A DNA stretch of 44,061 bases from a virus. The stretch covers positions 1-44,061 of IMG/VR virus record IMGVR_UViG_3300036772_000119; one strand, 5' to 3'. The position numbers and the translations under genes were made by a program. Each line of letters starts with the position of its first letter. The stretch's first letter is position 1. The notes below the pieces were generated by a model, which was not told the origin of the DNA, did not search any database, and saw only the letters and a list, made by a program, of their open reading frames with translations. Positions 5,747 to 41,385 of the stretch are shown piece by piece.

Positions 5747-5797
5747 AAATTTGGTGGCCCTTGCTGGACTTGAACCAGCGACCAAGCGATTATGAGT
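5747..5797. repeat. attL core (51-bp direct repeat)
   Basis: Bases 5747-5797 are identical to 41304-41354 (51/51), and both flanks diverge immediately. The repeat contains the 3' part of the ileX tRNA gene from the anticodon loop to CCA. The crossover therefore occurred within this segment. Confidence 0.95.
5752..5797 (-). pseudogene. 3' stub of tRNA-Ile2 (ileX) at attL
   Basis: The 46 nt match the anticodon-to-CCA half of the tRNA at 41309-41385. Beyond 5797 the sequence (AACAACTGAATAC) no longer fits a tRNA 5' half, so this stub cannot make a tRNA. Confidence 0.92.
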
Positions 5798-6163: not shown

Positions 6164-7447
6164 TCAATTATTCACCGGTTCGGGCCAACTCCAATTATCA
6201 TATCTTTGAATTTTAATAGTAAGTTCCTGCGGCGCTTCGCTACCACTCAAATTTTCTCGATAAGCAATGAGCCCTACAGGGATTACTTGCTCAGCACTAA
6301 AAGTGTTTGGTGCCCAGGGAGCAATGCGTTTATTGGGTTCAAAAACTTTAACGTCTCTGTTTATGGTTTTTAACCAAGAAATGCTTATGACTTCAGCACC
6401 GGCAGCATTGAGATACATCCTTGCGGTTTCATGCGCATTTCCTTCTGTACAAAAATCGTCAATGACTAATACCTTCGCTCCTCTTAAATTTGGATGATTG
6501 ACATAGCGAACTCCGGTATTTAGATTTTTTATAGGAGCTGGGTTTAGATGGACTGTATTAATCTGAGATGTTATTGATACGTCCCCGCCTCGCCTGCGGA
6601 TATTCTGAGATTTATCTGCCGTAGTATGTCTGATGAAAAGGTCTTTAAGATATTTCCCTTTGAATGCTACTGCTAGACCTTTTAGGTCATGCTCCATGAT
6701 CTCGCCAAGTTTGTATGGGTTTTGAGAGTTGTGACCTACATATGTAGTTATGTATTTTGCGCCATTACTTAGTCCAGAGAAAAAGATACTCGCTGCTAAG
6801 TATCTTATCCAGAAGTCTGGAGTGCCTATTGATAATTTGGCTAGTGATCGAGCATTCTCTGAGTAAAAACTAAAATCTGCAAGGTATGTACTAAAGGGAG
6901 CTAACGCATAGTAATTTGCATTATTTAAATTGCCTTGCCAACCCCAAGCGATTTCGCGTAGGCAGAAAATATCTATAAACCGCGCGATTTCTTTAGGGGA
7001 TGAAAATAGAAACCCATATTCGTTAACTGGTTCAAACCAAGTAGCATTTAAAAATAAAACTTTTCCATTTGTTGAGGCCTGCAAGTCTTCATCAGAACGG
7101 CCAACATAGATGATCTCATTCCTTTCGAGATTAAGATCTTCCATTATAAAATCGATAGCACGACCACTTTGTTTTACTGGGATGTCAGGGTTCAATGCTC
7201 GACAGTAGTGCTTTGATTTTGGATAACGTTGAGCAAGAAATTCATTTAATGGTATCTGTTCTTCTTCGCTGAATACCGTTCCATTATTGTTTGTAAGAAA
7301 TATTATGTGAATGTTCTTGGAATCTAAAAAGTCTAACAGTTTTTTGAATTCCCTTGCCATTGTTACTTTAATGTCATTCGAGTGAGGATTAGTTCTTGTT
7401 GGTAAGACAACATCACGTATAGAAAATATTACGGCTTTGAGAAGCAT
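6164..7447 (-). CDS. shosT: ShosT-like toxin: HAD-like plus phosphoribosyltransferase
   Basis: A 427-aa two-domain protein. Residues ~1-160 look like a HAD phosphatase: motif II LTNNNG is present near residue 51 and the acidic YVGRSDEDL near 120. However, the catalytic DxD is replaced by S9-I-R11 (AVIFSIRDVV), so phosphatase activity is doubtful. Residues ~230-400 form a type I phosphoribosyltransferase with the PRPP loop VLVIDDFCTEGNAHETAR (D330, D331). A PRTase toxin beside a DprA-like partner is the layout of the ShosTA system, as I recall it. AAGGAG overlapping the upstream stop codon (7453-7458) suggests translational coupling. The gene is clearly AT-rich compared with the phage core, which points to recent acquisition. 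Confidence 0.75.
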   Translation of the reverse strand: MLLKAVIFSIRDVVLPTRTNPHSNDIKVTMAREFKKLLDFLDSKNIHIIFLTNNNGTVFSEEEQIPLNEFLAQRYPKSKHYCRALNPDIPVKQSGRAIDFIMEDLNLERNEIIYVGRSDEDLQASTNGKVLFLNATWFEPVNEYGFLFSSPKEIARFIDIFCLREIAWGWQGNLNNANYYALAPFSTYLADFSFYSENARSLAKLSIGTPDFWIRYLAASIFFSGLSNGAKYITTYVGHNSQNPYKLGEIMEHDLKGLAVAFKGKYLKDLFIRHTTADKSQNIRRRGGDVSITSQINTVHLNPAPIKNLNTGVRYVNHPNLRGAKVLVIDDFCTEGNAHETARMYLNAAGAEVISISWLKTINRDVKVFEPNKRIAPWAPNTFSAEQVIPVGLIAYRENLSGSEAPQELTIKIQRYDNWSWPEPVNN

Positions 7448-7456
7448 AAATACTCC

Positions 7457-8431
7457 TTATAAAAATGTTAGTTGCTGTAGTGTATTAGATGGGGTCGCGT
7501 TTAGAATTCTTTCAAATTCAGCATCGTTGTTGAGAGGTGTTTTGAGTAGTAACGCCCCATAATTACTTTGTGCAAATTTAATTTCTTCATTTTCACTCAT
7601 GTCTCCAATTACGGGGCATAAGATTTTTCTTTTTAATTCTGCCGCGTTTTTTACAGTGTGAGCAGTGCCGCTTTTTATATTCCATTCAACAGGAATTAAA
7701 ATATCACTAATAGCAGCTTGAATTCTGTTGCGACGTACAAAATTTTCTTTACTTGGTTTCTGATCTGGTAAGTACTCCGTTATGATTAGGCCACCGTTGT
7801 TGACAATGTCGTTTCTGATAGCTTCACTATTTTTAGGATAGTTAGAGTAAATCCCTGTTCCTAGAACGGCAATCGTTGGTAATTTAAACATTAAAGCGGA
7901 TTCATGCGCAATCTGATCAATTCCGAATGCTAAACCACTTACTATTGAGTAGTCTAAATTTATGAAATTTGAAATAACAGATTGAGTGAGGAACGTCCCT
8001 AATTTACTAGGTTCTCTAGTTCCCACAACACCTACACACTTTTTACTTAGTAAGGATATATCACCTTGTGTGAAAAGCCAAAATGGAGGGTTGCTTAGTT
8101 CTTTTAGTTTTTCTGGATAGGATGGTGAGCCGTGATGAATTATTGAAAATCCTTGGGAATGGTAGTGGATTAATAATGATTTTGCGGCATTAATCATACC
8201 GTTTCTAAATTCAGGCCAAGTCTCTTCAGAAATACTAAGCATATTTTTATGAAGTTTTACCCCGAGAAGAGTTTCGAACTTCTGAAATGTATTTGCTGTG
8301 ATGATATCCCGAAACCTTATACCGTTTTGAGCCACTTTGTACAAAGACCAGTAGCTAACGCCGCGCATAGATGAAAGCGCTAATAATGCGGCACTTTCAG
8401 TGTTCCATCGAGCCTGTTCAGTATCTGTCAT
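7457..8431 (-). CDS. shosA: ShosA-like antitoxin, DprA/SLOG domain protein
   Basis: A 324-aa protein with a DprA-type Rossmann (SLOG) domain. GVVGTR (134-139), SGLAFGID (165-172), the GTGIYSNYP turn (191-199), RRNR (233-236) and SGTAHT (254-259) are all in the DprA order. DprA itself binds ssDNA and loads RecA in transformation. This shorter phage version lacks the usual C-terminal winged helix. It lies 9 bp upstream of shosT on the same strand, the antitoxin-first order. Upstream, an imperfect dyad (ATCGTTC 8460-8466 / GTACGAT 8479-8485) could be an autoregulatory operator. Sensing of phage DNA intermediates by the DprA fold is plausible but inferred. Confidence 0.75.
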   Translation of the reverse strand: MTDTEQARWNTESAALLALSSMRGVSYWSLYKVAQNGIRFRDIITANTFQKFETLLGVKLHKNMLSISEETWPEFRNGMINAAKSLLIHYHSQGFSIIHHGSPSYPEKLKELSNPPFWLFTQGDISLLSKKCVGVVGTREPSKLGTFLTQSVISNFINLDYSIVSGLAFGIDQIAHESALMFKLPTIAVLGTGIYSNYPKNSEAIRNDIVNNGGLIITEYLPDQKPSKENFVRRNRIQAAISDILIPVEWNIKSGTAHTVKNAAELKRKILCPVIGDMSENEEIKFAQSNYGALLLKTPLNNDAEFERILNATPSNTLQQLTFL

Positions 8432-12082: not shown

Positions 12083-12423
12083 TGATGAAGCACGAAGAAG
12101 CTACGCCAGAAATGGCGGAAGCCATGGCGAAGCGCGTTGATATCGATCTTGCCTTCACCATCATCCCTAAAAAGAACGGTGATCTGATTCTTGCCGAAAT
12201 TAAGACAGATAAAGAAACCCGCACACAGTATTGCTCCACGCTTGCTGTGTTTCAGTTGCGTCTTTCGCTTGCTGCCGAATTCATAAATCGCTCCGCCGCC
12301 CGCGCTATATGGCTTAAGAAAGTCACCTGCGCGGCAACGATGCGCAAAGAGTACAACCGCGCTGCTGATCTGGTATTTGCTGCTCTGGTAAAACTCCAAA
12401 AGCCGGAGGTGACAAATGGCTGA
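12082..12423 (+). CDS. hypothetical early phage protein
   Basis: A 113-aa protein starting at the first of two adjacent ATGs (12082 and 12085) that overlap the DUF2732 stop. It has a strand-rich start (DLAFTIIPKKNGDLILAEIKTD) followed by helical, Arg/Ala-rich sequence. Its end overlaps the next gene by 8 bp. The position corresponds to the small early genes upstream of A in P2-like phages. I do not recognise a domain. Confidence 0.65.
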   Translation: MMKHEEATPEMAEAMAKRVDIDLAFTIIPKKNGDLILAEIKTDKETRTQYCSTLAVFQLRLSLAAEFINRSAARAIWLKKVTCAATMRKEYNRAADLVFAALVKLQKPEVTNG

Positions 12424-12640
12424 TGTCATCGACACCGCACAGGAACGTGCAGACCTAATTTTGGCCGCCCAAATCCAAGCCGCCCGCGCACCTGTTGCGG
12501 GCGTTTCCGCAATGTTTTGTCTTGAGTGTGATCGACCAATCCCCGAAGAACGCCGCGCAGCTCTGCCAGGCGTTGAGCTGTGTGTGTATTGCAAAGAACT
12601 TGCTGAACTCAATGCCAAACACTACCGAGGCAACCAATGA
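12416..12640 (+). CDS. TraR/DksA-type zinc-finger protein
   Basis: A 74-aa protein with a four-cysteine finger (CLEC...CVYC, near residues 35-38 and 56-59) and PIPEERRAALPG between, the signature of phage TraR/DksA-family proteins. Family members such as F-plasmid TraR bind the RNA polymerase secondary channel and mimic DksA plus ppGpp. The DxxDxA-type acidic tip is replaced by the helical N-terminus VIDTAQERADLILAAQ. It overlaps both its neighbours, typical of P2-like early operons. Confidence 0.85.
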   Translation: MADVIDTAQERADLILAAQIQAARAPVAGVSAMFCLECDRPIPEERRAALPGVELCVYCKELAELNAKHYRGNQ

Positions 12641-12720
12641 TCAGTTTATCCGTGGCTGTTCTTGTCCTGGCGGTGAATGCCGCCTGTTATTTCTTTATTG
12701 ATATGAAAGGCGGCATGTAA
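12637..12720 (+). CDS. 27-aa hydrophobic peptide
   Basis: A tiny ORF linked by ATGA to the zinc-finger gene upstream and by TAATG to dam downstream. It encodes one membrane segment (SLSVAVLVLAVNAACYFFI) followed by DMKGGM. The double overlap argues that it is translated and that it couples its neighbours. Its function is unknown. Confidence 0.6.
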   Translation: MISLSVAVLVLAVNAACYFFIDMKGGM

Positions 12721-13595
12721 TGGAACAAGTGCGCACTGTACTGAAATGGGCGGGTTCTAAAATCCGCATTATGGATATTTTGAAAGAGCACCTGCCAGCA
12801 GGCCGCCGCTTGGTTGAACCTTTCGCGGGTTCTTGTGCTGTAATGATGAATACTGATTATCAAGAGTATTTGATTGCTGATGTAAATCCCGATCTTATTT
12901 ATCTTTATCAAGCCATAAAATTGGATGTTGAGTGGTTTATTAAAGATGCTAAGCGGTATTTTGAAGTAGCTAATAGTGCTGAGGACTATTACAGACTAAG
13001 AGCTGATTTCAACGCGGGTCTTTCTCCAGATTGGCAATATCGTGCGGCGCTTTTCCTATTCTTAAATCGCCATTGTTATAACGGTCTTTGCCGCTATAAC
13101 AGATCCGGTGGTTTTAATACTCCCTACGGTAAATATAAGAAACCATATTTCCCTGAGAATGAAATCCGCGCATTCGCAGAGAAAGCAAAACGTGCGACTT
13201 TCATCTGTTGTTCTTTTGACGAAGCCCTGGCAATGGTTCAGCCTGGCGACGTTATTTATTGTGATCCTCCATACCTGCCAGCTTCTTCCTCTGCAAATTT
13301 CACCGGTTATGCCGCTGCCTGTTTTGGTAAGCTTGAACATGAGCAACTGAGTGCCAGCTTGCTCGCGCTCGCTGAACGTAGCTATCCCGTGATTGCGTCG
13401 AACTCTGACACCCGTGAATCCCGTGGCCTGTATGGCAAATTCAAGATTGTATCGTTTGATGCTCCGCGTTCTGTTGGTGCGGCGGCTGACAGCATCAAAT
13501 CGGCTCCTGAAATCATCGCCAAAATCACCCCTAAGAAACCGCAGTATCTTCCTGCTATTTCTTCTGTTTCCGAATTAGAAGAAGTGGAAATTTAA
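12720..13595 (+). CDS. dam: Dam-type DNA adenine methylase
   Basis: A 291-aa class D12 N6-adenine methyltransferase. KWAGSK (9-14) is motif X, FAGSCAV (35-41) is the S-adenosylmethionine-binding motif I, and DPPY (182-185) is catalytic motif IV. E. coli Dam methylates GATC, which is the likely but untested target. Phage Dam homologues can protect phage DNA from restriction or shift regulation of phage genes. It begins within the stop codon of the upstream peptide and is followed 2 bp later by the TGT-like gene, so the two are probably expressed together. Confidence 0.92.
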   Translation: MEQVRTVLKWAGSKIRIMDILKEHLPAGRRLVEPFAGSCAVMMNTDYQEYLIADVNPDLIYLYQAIKLDVEWFIKDAKRYFEVANSAEDYYRLRADFNAGLSPDWQYRAALFLFLNRHCYNGLCRYNRSGGFNTPYGKYKKPYFPENEIRAFAEKAKRATFICCSFDEALAMVQPGDVIYCDPPYLPASSSANFTGYAAACFGKLEHEQLSASLLALAERSYPVIASNSDTRESRGLYGKFKIVSFDAPRSVGAAADSIKSAPEIIAKITPKKPQYLPAISSVSELEEVEI

Positions 13596-13597
13596 CG

Positions 13598-14383
13598 GTG
13601 AGGCATTTTCATGGGACGCCAGTCTGGGGCGGCGCGGGAGACGTTTTAAAGGTGGCGATCCGTGATAGCGGCGCTTTCGTCTCATACGCTCGCCCTGACC
13701 AAATCAAACAAAGCTTCACCTACGCCAGTTCTGTGGGATTGGACTGTGGGGCGTTTAGTGCATGGAAGCGCGGCCTGGTGATTGATTGGACAAAGTTTTA
13801 TCAGTTTCTTTCGATCTGGTATGGACATGAAAAGCTTAAATTTTTCTGCATACCGGACGTGATTGAGGGGGGTGAAGAAGACAACGACCTTTTGATTAAG
13901 AAGTTACCTTCTATTTTTCGCGATAAAGCCGCACCCGTTTGGCACCTACATGAATCAATTGATCGCCTAAAGAAGCTAGTTTCTGAGTGGGAACGCGTCT
14001 GCCTGGGATCTTCTGGCGAGTATGCGGTTATTCGTACAAGGCATTGGCATTCAAGAATGCATGAGGCTTTCACAGTCATTCGTGATGTAAACCCTGATGT
14101 TCATGTTCACGGACTAAGAATGCTGGATGGGCGTGTGTTTGGTAACTATCCCCTCACCACTGCGGACAGTACAAACCTGGCATGCAACGTTCCGAAAACC
14201 GAAGTGAAATATCCAGAGCTAACCCACCAGCTCCGCGCCCTTGGCTGCACGGAAGTAGAAGTGCTTGCAGGGCGCTGCGCGATTCTACGAAAAGCCATTG
14301 AAATGGTTAACCCGCCAACACTGACAGAATACTTCCAGCGTTACGAGGAAAGCCGTTCCCCTCAGTTATGCCTGGAGTTTTGA
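13598..14383 (+). CDS. TGT/DpdA-like protein, possible base-exchange enzyme
   Basis: A 261-aa protein that resembles the tRNA-guanine transglycosylase superfamily. SVGLDCGAFSAW recalls the DSGGFQ segment of TGT. FCIPDVIEGG and the C-terminal VHGLRMLDGR...YPLTTADST fit the TIM-barrel pattern of DpdA, the enzyme that swaps guanine for a 7-deazaguanine in DNA. The zinc site of classical TGT is not visible. The start is a GTG, since no in-frame ATG lies nearby. It sits between dam and the replication initiator, suggesting a role in modifying phage DNA. No preQ0-synthesis gene is present in the window, so a precursor would have to come from the host. The assignment is by motif reading only. Confidence 0.55.
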   Translation: MRHFHGTPVWGGAGDVLKVAIRDSGAFVSYARPDQIKQSFTYASSVGLDCGAFSAWKRGLVIDWTKFYQFLSIWYGHEKLKFFCIPDVIEGGEEDNDLLIKKLPSIFRDKAAPVWHLHESIDRLKKLVSEWERVCLGSSGEYAVIRTRHWHSRMHEAFTVIRDVNPDVHVHGLRMLDGRVFGNYPLTTADSTNLACNVPKTEVKYPELTHQLRALGCTEVEVLAGRCAILRKAIEMVNPPTLTEYFQRYEESRSPQLCLEF

Positions 14384-14384
14384 C

Positions 14385-16640
14385 ATGAAACTCAATATGC
14401 AAACAAGTCGATTCTTACCAGTAATAATTGTCCCTGATATCTGGGCGTTTTCCTGGAACAAACCACGACAGGCCGTTTCTGGCCTGGAAAGACCGCTTAC
14501 CCGTGATGAATACGATCAGGGGCAAGCCGTTTTAATCAAAGTTAAAACCCTTTCAACCGATCTGCAGGAAATATTCAAAGGCCGCCACAAACACCTACTG
14601 AAAAACCAGGGCATTCACGCCGCCAATAAATATCTGGTTTATACCCTGGGCCGCAGCATTCTACCGCGTGTGGATGCAGTCAATTCAGCACACGCAATGA
14701 ATCTTCATGCCTCCATGAAATTCATGTCTGAAATTGATACTTATCACCAACTGCCGAGCATGAGCGATAAGCCGTTGCGCCGGTTCGCCCAAGACATCGC
14801 CGGACAACTGAAAGAAATCTATGAAGAACATTGCGATCAACTGCTGGAGGAAAACGGTGGGGATAATGCAGTGCTTTTCTCATCTTTCACGCAAGGCCAT
14901 CTTTACGGTGAAATTGCCGAAATGGCTCGTGCTTTTAATGTCACACCGATGTACTGGAAGAAATACTGCAAAGGAAAACTGGATGCCGTTTCCGCCGTTG
15001 CCGGTTTGTCACGTCTGGTTAATCCGGATTGGTGGTTAAGTCAGTTGAAAGGCCAGCGCACCCGCTGGCGTGAATCTTTGCTGATCGCTATCGGCAAGGT
15101 TAACCGCGACGCTTCCCCCTATGCGAGTAAACAGGCTATACGCGAAGTACGTGCGCGCCGTCTGTCAAATCTCGACTACCTGAAAAACTGCGATTTAGAA
15201 AACATCGAAACCGGCGAGCGCATCAGTCTGATCGACAAAGTGATGGCAAGCATTTCTAACCCTGAAATCCGCCGTATGGAGCTGATGAGCACGATCGCCG
15301 GCACCGAGAAATATGCTGCTGCAAATGGTGACGTTGGGATGTTCCTGACTATCACCACCCCCTCCAAATATCACCCGACGCGCATGGTCGGCAAAGGTGA
15401 TAAAAAGCGCGTTCAGAGAAATCACACCTGGGACAAAGAAGCCTTCACTCCGAAAGATGCGCAGCGTTATCTGTGCGGGATCTGGAGCAAAATGCGTACT
15501 GCGTTTAAGGATAACGACCTGTCTGTTTACGGGATGCGGGTGGTGGAGCCTCACCACGACGCGACCCCGCACTGGCACATGATGTTATTCACCAGGCCTG
15601 CTATGCGTCAGCCGGTGATCGACATCATGCGTAAATACGCCATGAAAGAAGACGGCGACGAACGTGGCGCAGCCAAAAATCGCTTTGACTGTAAGCACCT
15701 GAATCGTGGCGGCGCGGCTGGCTATATTGCCAAATACATTGCAAAGAATATCGACGGTTACGCACTGGAAGGCGAGCGCGACCATGAAACCGGTGAGCTG
15801 CTGACAGATTCCGCTGCCGCTGTTACCGCCTGGGCTGCTACCTGGCGGATCCCTCAGTTTCACCCCATCGGCCTGCCTACCATGGGTTCATACCGTGAGT
15901 GCCGTCGCATCCGTTCCATCAGCCTGGCTGAAACCTTTGACGAAGAAGTGGAAGCCGTCCGCGCTGCTGCTGATGCCGGTGATTTTATGGCGTACATGTC
16001 AGCCCAGGGCGGCGCAAATGTTCCCCATGACGATCAGACTGTTCGTGTAGCTCGCCGGATTGCTGACGAGCTGAACGCCTACGACGAAGAAGTGAAAAAG
16101 GTTGTGGGTATTTTCGCGCCGCATCTCGGCGACTCCCGCGTTTATGAAACCCGTACAACTCAATGGCGCATCGTTTCTTCTGCCGTTGACGTTGAGGTTT
16201 TGACCTCAAAAAGCGCCTCCGGCGCGCCTCGGAGTCCTGTCAATAACTGTGGGTTAGGTGGAAATAAACCGGCTGCAATTGGGCGTGATAGCCAGGCTAG
16301 GAGCGCTGCTACAACGTTCATTTCTGATAACCGACCGGTAATTGACTGGACAGACACTGCCGCCGTGAGGGCGATTGTGGCACGCATTAGGGAGGAAACG
16401 CCGAGAGTCAGTAAGGCGCAGCGCAGTTTCGACCCGACAAAAGGCCGTGATGTAGCTCCGTCGGCCAGATTGACGACAGAAGAACGGGCGCGCTTGCCGG
16501 AAATCGAACGTGCATTGATGAAACACAACATCACGGCTGAACGCTGGGAACTGGAAGCGCTAAGCCGAGGGGCGAAAATCAGCTTTGGTGATCTGGTTAT
16601 GTGTTTTGAACCGCTGCCTGATTGGGCTGAATTTGAATAA
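14385..16640 (+). CDS. A: replication initiator A (rolling-circle HUH endonuclease)
   Basis: A 751-aa protein (P2 A is 761 aa) that nicks the origin to start rolling-circle replication. The HUH metal motif is H396-W-H398 (DATPHWHMMLF), and the paired active-site tyrosines are Y447 and Y451 (AAGYIAKYIAKN), the Y-x3-Y arrangement of P2 A (Y450/Y454). The P2 origin lies inside its A gene, so ori is probably internal here too. TGGAG precedes the ATG, 1 bp after the TGT-like gene. The C-terminus (residues ~610-751) is polar and less conserved. Confidence 0.94.
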   Translation: MKLNMQTSRFLPVIIVPDIWAFSWNKPRQAVSGLERPLTRDEYDQGQAVLIKVKTLSTDLQEIFKGRHKHLLKNQGIHAANKYLVYTLGRSILPRVDAVNSAHAMNLHASMKFMSEIDTYHQLPSMSDKPLRRFAQDIAGQLKEIYEEHCDQLLEENGGDNAVLFSSFTQGHLYGEIAEMARAFNVTPMYWKKYCKGKLDAVSAVAGLSRLVNPDWWLSQLKGQRTRWRESLLIAIGKVNRDASPYASKQAIREVRARRLSNLDYLKNCDLENIETGERISLIDKVMASISNPEIRRMELMSTIAGTEKYAAANGDVGMFLTITTPSKYHPTRMVGKGDKKRVQRNHTWDKEAFTPKDAQRYLCGIWSKMRTAFKDNDLSVYGMRVVEPHHDATPHWHMMLFTRPAMRQPVIDIMRKYAMKEDGDERGAAKNRFDCKHLNRGGAAGYIAKYIAKNIDGYALEGERDHETGELLTDSAAAVTAWAATWRIPQFHPIGLPTMGSYRECRRIRSISLAETFDEEVEAVRAAADAGDFMAYMSAQGGANVPHDDQTVRVARRIADELNAYDEEVKKVVGIFAPHLGDSRVYETRTTQWRIVSSAVDVEVLTSKSASGAPRSPVNNCGLGGNKPAAIGRDSQARSAATTFISDNRPVIDWTDTAAVRAIVARIREETPRVSKAQRSFDPTKGRDVAPSARLTTEERARLPEIERALMKHNITAERWELEALSRGAKISFGDLVMCFEPLPDWAEFE

Positions 16641-17081: not shown

Positions 17082-17343
17082 CGCGCGCCGTGGTGAAGCG
17101 CGGTTAAAATGGCGCAACCTGTGGCACTCTGAGGCAGTTTCTCTTTCAATTCGTGTTTTGGGTGCCATTCAAGATAGGAGCGTGCAGAGAGGCTTAGAGG
17201 GGCTGGGGTGGGGGATAGATGCGGCCATTCTGCTGGGTTGAATCATAACACTGTGGCGTTGTGTTACAGAATTAGTTGAATTTAAGATAACTTTGATTTC
17301 ATATATCAGTTCAAATGATATTTTTCATTGTGGAGGGATTGAA

Positions 17344-18471
17344 GTGGGGAATGAAGTTTACGAAAGTCAAAAATGCATATTACGATACTCTAAATCAGAG
17401 ATAGAAAGGGCTGCGCAAAAAATTAGGCATGGATGCAGTGAAGAAGAAAAAGTTGAAGCTATTGCAAAAATTCAAAATTTTAGAGAACTGCATCTTTATC
17501 CCTTAATGTTAATGAAAAACCATCTTGCAAGAACAGCTGCGAAAGTGGATCGAGAGAAACGCATTATTGTCGCAAGAAGATTAAAACGACTTTATACGAT
17601 AATTGATAAGCTTGAGCGTCCTAGTCTGGATGGAGGTAAAACCGCCAATGCTATTCGACTTACCCGTATGCAGGATATCGGTGGATGCCGAGCAATTGTT
17701 AAAAATATTGAACAACTGAAACAATTAAAAGACAGGCTTGTCAAAAGCAGGTCGGTACATAAAATCATTAAGGAGTATGATTACTTAACCCCTAAAGAAA
17801 GTGGTTATGGTGGTATTCATTTGGCATACAGTTGTTTTGATGAGCAGGAGGAAAAATTCGCCTGGAGAAAAACCAAAATTGAAATACAACTAAGGACGGA
17901 GTTGCAGCACGCTTGGGCTACAAGTTTAGAAATTATCGATACTTTAGAAGACATCAAGCTAAAAACTTCGATTGAAGGCCACGCCGAGTGGCGGAGATTC
18001 TTCTATCTTGCTGGATGCCTTGTAGCTCATGATGAAAGAGCTTGTCTCTTAGAACAGGGCGTAGTGGATTCATATCAGGAGGAACTGCGAGGTCTGGAGC
18101 AACATTTATCTGTTAGGCAAAAACTAAATACATATACATTCGCGCTTAACTTAACATCAAATGAAACTACTAAAAACCAGTTACCTAAAAATCATAAAGG
18201 GTATTTTTTAGTTTCAATGAGAAACCCTAAAAATGAACCGGAGGAACCCTCTCCAAAACGTTTTATAGTAACAGTTAAAGCGTACAGGACAAAAGAGGCT
18301 GACGAGGCATTAATTGCACTAAACCAAGATGATGCTAATCCAGAAATATCAATTTCCGTCTTGGTCGCCACTGATAACATAAAATCACTAAAAAAAGCTT
18401 ATCCAAACTACTTTGGTTCAACAAGCCAGTTTAGTCGCTTTTTGAAGAAACATGTTGATCCAAAGGTATAG
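17344..18471 (+). CDS. capRel: CapRel-like fused RelA/SpoT toxin-antitoxin
   Basis: A 375-aa toxSAS protein. The synthetase-like core is intact: RLKRLYTI (79-86), MQDIGGCRAIV (109-119), the G-loop SGYGGIHLAY with Y155, and EIQLRTELQHAWA (180-192). The C-terminus carries AYPNYF with Y353 and Y356, the YXXY neutralisation motif. In CapRel of phage SJ46, Y155 is the catalytic G-loop tyrosine and Y352/Y355 hold the toxin in check. There the toxin pyrophosphorylates tRNA 3' ends once a phage capsid protein binds the C-terminal domain. The GTG at 17344, with GGAGGG 6 bp upstream, is preferred over a TTG at 17293 that has no ribosome site. The gene is AT-rich cargo between cos and Q. Confidence 0.82.
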   Translation: MGNEVYESQKCILRYSKSEIERAAQKIRHGCSEEEKVEAIAKIQNFRELHLYPLMLMKNHLARTAAKVDREKRIIVARRLKRLYTIIDKLERPSLDGGKTANAIRLTRMQDIGGCRAIVKNIEQLKQLKDRLVKSRSVHKIIKEYDYLTPKESGYGGIHLAYSCFDEQEEKFAWRKTKIEIQLRTELQHAWATSLEIIDTLEDIKLKTSIEGHAEWRRFFYLAGCLVAHDERACLLEQGVVDSYQEELRGLEQHLSVRQKLNTYTFALNLTSNETTKNQLPKNHKGYFLVSMRNPKNEPEEPSPKRFIVTVKAYRTKEADEALIALNQDDANPEISISVLVATDNIKSLKKAYPNYFGSTSQFSRFLKKHVDPKV

Positions 18472-41303: not shown

Positions 41304-41354
41304 AAATTTGGTGGCCCTTGCTGGACTTGAACCAGCGACCAAGCGATTATGAGT
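41304..41354. repeat. attR core (51-bp direct repeat)
   Basis: Identical to 5747-5797. It makes up the 3' 46 nt of the intact ileX gene plus 5 bp downstream. Confidence 0.95.
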
Positions 41355-41385
41355 CGCGTGCTCTAACCAACTGAGCTAAAGGGCC
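41309..41385 (-). tRNA. ileX: tRNA-Ile2 (CAU anticodon, lysidine-modified), ileX
   Basis: A 77-nt gene with encoded CCA. The acceptor stem GGCCCTT/AAGGGCC is fully paired and the TPsiC arm reads GGTCGCTGGTTCAAGTCC. The anticodon CAT sits in GACTCATAATC. A CAT anticodon with this body is the tRNA whose C34 is changed by TilS to lysidine so that it reads AUA. In E. coli the same tRNA lies next to mug and rpoD, as here. The 3' half was brought by the phage. Confidence 0.93.

Follow-up and report, generated by a model that had tools for sequence, protein, structure and literature searches.

A DpdA-only transglycosylase gene upstream of gpA in a P2-like prophage of Rahnella and its proposed role in sparse 7-deazaguanine modification of phage DNA

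The DpdA family of DNA 7-deazaguanine transglycosylases and the DpdA-only phages are already known, and the gene described here is a further member. In the Escherichia phages CAjan and 9g (Queuovirinae), DpdA carries out a DNA base exchange derived from that of tRNA-guanine transglycosylase (TGT), the phages carry their own preQ0 pathway, and CAjan modifies ~32% of its G (PMC6884629). In the DpdA-only relatives, the measured modification is sparse, at 0.02-0.13% of G. Virion DNA of the Pantoea phage vB_PagS_MED16, in which dpdA (gp38) is the only 7-deazaguanine gene and preQ0-synthesis genes are absent, contains dADG at 354 per 10^6 nt, or ~0.13% of G; the restriction enzymes that were tested were not noticeably impeded by this modification, but they were blocked by adenine methylation (PMC8306585). 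In virion DNA of Salmonella phage 7-11, the level of dADG is 50 per 10^6 nt (PMC6884629). By arithmetic from the published levels, these values correspond to ~33 modified bases per double-stranded MED16 genome and ~9 per 7-11 genome. Neither PMC8306585 nor PMC6884629 reports a protein purification or a dpdA deletion for the DpdA-only subfamily, the deletion control being that of CAjan. For this reason, and given the very small amounts of dADG in both phages and the lack of a noticeable restriction effect in MED16, contamination with host DNA or a host source of dADG remains a caveat to these measurements.

In this study, we analyzed a dpdA gene within a window of 44,061 nucleotides, which is the full length of the IMG/VR virus record IMGVR_UViG_3300036772_000119 (Table 1). 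The window holds a complete P2-like prophage of ~35.6 kb in a Rahnella chromosome, delimited by a pair of att repeats and flanked by chromosomal genes including those for glutamate dehydrogenase and RpoD. The host is assigned to Rahnella because the rpoD gene of the window is 94-99% identical to that of 14 genomes from the genus of the Rahnella rivi locus, with 99% identity to one of them. At the DNA level, the closest phage records are P2-like phages of Yersinia enterocolitica. A search of the window for Rfam families returned one tRNA only, and no preQ1 riboswitch. The dpdA gene is separated by 2 bp from the Dam gene upstream and by 1 bp from gpA downstream, and its GTG start is supported by relatives, which begin at the same place or at most two codons away. 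The open reading frame at 13598-14383 and both gaps had been given exactly in the initial annotation, and its identification of the Dam and gpA neighbors was confirmed by Pfam.

Table 1. Features of the Rahnella prophage window and of related dpdA loci (the latter with locus handles and their own coordinates)
Feature	Location	Strand	Evidence or remark
Left att repeat, 51 bp	5747-5797		exact repeat with 41304-41354; left prophage end
ShosT/ShosA anti-phage defence pair (known system)	6164-8431	-	PADLOC, E 1.5e-213 and 5.3e-157
DksA/TraR-type zinc-finger protein	12416-12640	+	PF01258, PHROG 54; upstream edge of cargo slot
Dam-family N6-adenine DNA methyltransferase	12720-13595	+	PF02086, E 5.7e-66
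dpdA, predicted DpdA-type DNA 7-deazaguanine transglycosylase	13598-14383	+	261 aa, GTG start, intact
Motif LDCGAFS with D49, residues 48-54	13739-13759	+	aligns with LDSGAFS of CAjan and 9g DpdA
Motif TADST with D190, residues 188-192	14159-14173	+	aligns with SCDSS of CAjan and 9g DpdA
gpA, P2-type rolling-circle replication initiator	14385-16640	+	PF05840, E 1.4e-103; PHROG 91
RelA/SpoT-domain protein	17293-18471	+	candidate defence family PDC-S33, E 4e-84; GC 37.5%
Right att repeat, 51 bp	41304-41354		overlaps tRNA-Met gene; right prophage end
tRNA-Met	41309-41385		near rpoD
dpdA-linked transporter, L033	4772-5251		~155-165 aa
dpdA-linked transporter, L062	2507-3001		~155-165 aa
dpdA-linked transporter, L063	2474-2995		~155-165 aa
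dpdA-linked transporter, L066	2525-2995		~155-165 aa
dpdA-linked transporter, L068	3696-4187		~155-165 aa
dpdA-linked transporter, L149	2677-3180		~155-165 aa
810-aa protein gene overlapped by dpdA, L072	4804-7236		Pantoea agglomerans phage-like plasmid; C5-cytosine methylase and Dam-type domains
Genes directly following dpdA, L073	2995-5998		Klebsiella phage KO-TP1; PD-(D/E)XK protein and two DNA methyltransferases

The encoded protein is a DpdA of the DpdA-only subfamily (PHROG 887) with a TGT-like TIM barrel. It matches PHROG 887, named queuine tRNA-ribosyltransferase, with an E-value of 2.4e-75, and its relatives are present in 106 phage records. A profile built from 52 relatives gives 54 bits with the DpdA of CAjan and 40 bits with that of 9g, and both alignments run collinearly through the two aspartate motifs. 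The initial annotation of the protein as a TGT/DpdA-like enzyme is thereby supported as regards DpdA. Pfam gave no family for the protein at E-values up to 1, and thus no match to the TGT model PF01702. No family was assigned to it by NCBIfam or PADLOC. Since sequence searches of solved structures, with either the protein or the family profile, gave nothing significant, the fold assignment rests on an AlphaFold2 model (mean pLDDT 90.9, pTM 0.88), which consists of eight alternating strand-helix units, a (beta/alpha)8 barrel. In a Foldseek comparison of this model with the PDB, the first match was the archaeosine TGT 1j2b (E 7.7e-4, probability 1.00), followed by the DpdA crystal structure 7ui4 and many bacterial TGTs with probabilities of ~1.00; the TM-scores of ~0.5 denote similarity at the fold level, and the other TIM barrels listed were lower by TM. 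The structural comparison thus found the TIM-barrel TGT fold that the initial annotation had led one to expect.

Both TGT-like motifs noticed at first, DCGAFS and TADST, are present, and they are not due to chance because their key residues (D49, G51, A52, D190, S191, and T192) do not vary among 52 diverse homologues. By analogy with the DSGGFQ motif of TGT, D49 is the likely general acid/base position, and D190 probably corresponds to the nucleophile. The dN/dS ratio of dpdA against its 87-88%-identical relatives is 0.03-0.06 where it could be estimated, and the gene is therefore under strong purifying selection. Among the columns that reach 85% conservation in the family, the sole departure is C50, where 49 of the 52 relatives have N.

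Comparison with the described systems adds temperate P2-like Rahnella phages to the carriers of DpdA-only enzymes. The protein is 62% identical, over 94-95% of its length, to MED16 gp38 and to its counterparts in the P2-like Salmonella phages SEN1 and SW9. MED16, the phage with measured virion DNA, differs from the Rahnella prophage in being a siphovirus without integration genes. SEN1 is closer in its organization, with a P2-like genome and dpdA directly before the replication gene. The DpdA of phage 7-11, also a DpdA-only phage with dADG in virion DNA, belongs to the same family (~41% identity); however, it is encoded in an unrelated 90-kb genome, where neither dam nor a replication initiator adjoins dpdA. 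CAjan and 9g DpdA have collinear catalytic motifs and significant profile similarity, but they are ~50 residues longer and only distantly related.

With a probability of about 0.78, we propose that a DpdA-only enzyme encoded before gpA introduces sparse dADG into phage DNA from host preQ0, the adjacent Dam being a separate passenger. If the enzyme works as TGTs do, D190 would attack the target deoxyguanosine at C1', releasing guanine and leaving a covalent enzyme-DNA intermediate, with D49 assisting as acid/base. The base then placed in the DNA would be preQ0, supplied by the queuosine pathway of the host, and its nitrile would be converted to the amide, at least in part, by some further activity, giving sparse dADG. 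The likely benefit to the phage would be protection of specific motifs against one restriction system or a few. Of this scheme, the family, the fold, the conserved aspartates, the purifying selection, and a host genus able to make preQ0 are observed, whereas the DNA substrate, the preQ0 donor, the dADG product, and the benefit are inferred. The swapping of bases suggested initially would hence be too broad a term if taken as wholesale, since the modification measured in the family is sparse and not a bulk replacement. Nor is this the least explained enzyme of the window, as it had been called, because the DpdA family has already been studied. The Rahnella prophage offers a system in which the role of sparse dADG could be tested by simple gene deletion.

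The precursor would probably come from outside the phage. A profile scan of all window ORFs found no transporter-like ORF, and among the window ORFs scanned there were no preQ0-synthesis families and no gene for nitrile-to-amide conversion, in agreement with the initial remark that the usual accessory genes are missing. The host genus is capable of making preQ0: QueC, of the preQ0 pathway, is encoded in 14 of 14 Rahnella genomes, and R. rivi encodes QueF, Tgt, and a Vut_1/YhhQ transporter. Given these host genes, and closest measured relatives that are DpdA-only and contain dADG, the early suggestion that the phage draws on host preQ0 is probably right.

Some related phages carry a transporter of their own. 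When the dpdA family was clustered at 90% into 64 lineages, a short Vut_1/YhhQ-type membrane protein of the PHROG 4899 type, a PHROG listed as having unknown function, adjoined dpdA in 13 of them, on the same strand and either upstream or downstream. Where it lies upstream, its gene mostly overlaps dpdA by 1-4 bp. The Pfam Vut_1 cut-off was passed by 10 of the 12 dpdA-linked transporters scanned, and the CAjan gene annotated as 'putative preQ0 transporter' matches the same Vut_1/YhhQ-type profile. The short transporter was not found in loci lacking dpdA; in the one apparent exception (L166), the contig end cuts the dpdA gene. A survey from 2019 had seen YhhQ homologues in some phages, uncorrelated with any group, and the adjacency to dpdA is therefore a small addition to it. 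This compact transporter is a recurrent partner of the DpdA-only subfamily, and this supports the idea that the phages obtain queuosine precursors from the host or the environment.

A further idea, which we consider unlikely, gives the sparse modification a purpose of its own. Rather than shielding the whole genome, enzymes of the subfamily might set some tens of 7-deazaguanines at an uncommon sequence motif, for targeted protection or as an epigenetic mark. In P2-like phages these sites might lie near gpA and its replication origin, and the precursor might be host preQ0 or, in sister phages, be brought in by the linked mini-transporter.

The initial annotation took dpdA and dam for a possible DNA-modification cassette. 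In its full form, this reading would make them a dedicated pair of DNA-protection enzymes that travel and work together. The two genes abut in the Rahnella prophage, and dam lies directly upstream of dpdA in many P2-like relatives at 59-63% identity; moreover, dpdA overlaps a gene with a Dam domain in a Pantoea phage-plasmid, and MED16 encodes a Dam elsewhere in its genome. Nevertheless, the genes proved to be separable. In all eight of the closest dpdA relatives for which upstream sequence is available (87-88%), the zinc-finger gene is followed by dpdA and then gpA, and dam is absent; four further loci (L014-L016 and L031) have dpdA directly after the zinc-finger gene without dam, and in SEN1, unlike in the present prophage, dpdA follows a DUF5405 gene in a slot that lacks dam. 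Conversely, dpdA was found in none of the 35 loci retrieved with this Dam as query, the closest ones (75-84% identity) included. The closest lineage of dam is not that of dpdA, and the pairing is therefore a product of recombination. What lies between the zinc-finger gene and gpA is thus a cargo slot, and the two genes are independent passengers that were combined in this slot independently. The link between dpdA and Dam is thus incidental, and a working cassette is improbable.

We also judge it quite improbable that the protein is a phage TGT acting on tRNA or another RNA rather than on DNA. Such a substrate would agree with the name of the PHROG family and with the fold matches, which include many tRNA-guanine transglycosylases with the archaeosine enzyme ranked first, and the protein does share with bacterial Tgt and archaeosine TGT the TIM-barrel fold and analogous aspartate motifs. 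However, the zinc motif of tRNA TGTs (CxCxxC...H), present in both host Tgts, is missing in all 147 family members, and at 261 aa the protein is too short to hold an additional RNA-binding domain. The family profile that recognizes CAjan and 9g DpdA has no significant match to the Rahnella host Tgt, so that the resemblance to this Tgt does not extend to the sequence level. In addition, 7-deazaguanine was found in virion DNA of the relatives (PMC8306585, PMC6884629), and the host already has a Tgt of its own. DNA is the presumed substrate.

Least of all do we expect a decayed or non-catalytic TGT paralogue with another role, such as DNA binding next to gpA, for which the unusual C50 might speak, because this residue is common to the 87-88% clade and replaced by S in CAjan and 9g DpdA, every other position that reaches 85% conservation in the family is retained, both aspartates included, and selection on the gene is strongly purifying.

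Several other genes were observed in the course of the analysis. Methyltransferase genes adjoin dpdA in two loci outside Rahnella, the Pantoea agglomerans phage-like plasmid and Klebsiella phage KO-TP1 (Table 1). In the Rahnella prophage, the left att site and the integrase gene enclose the ShosT/ShosA pair, whose GC content is 37-39%, compared with 52% for the window. The gene of the RelA/SpoT-domain protein, located downstream of gpA, suggests a second defence slot.
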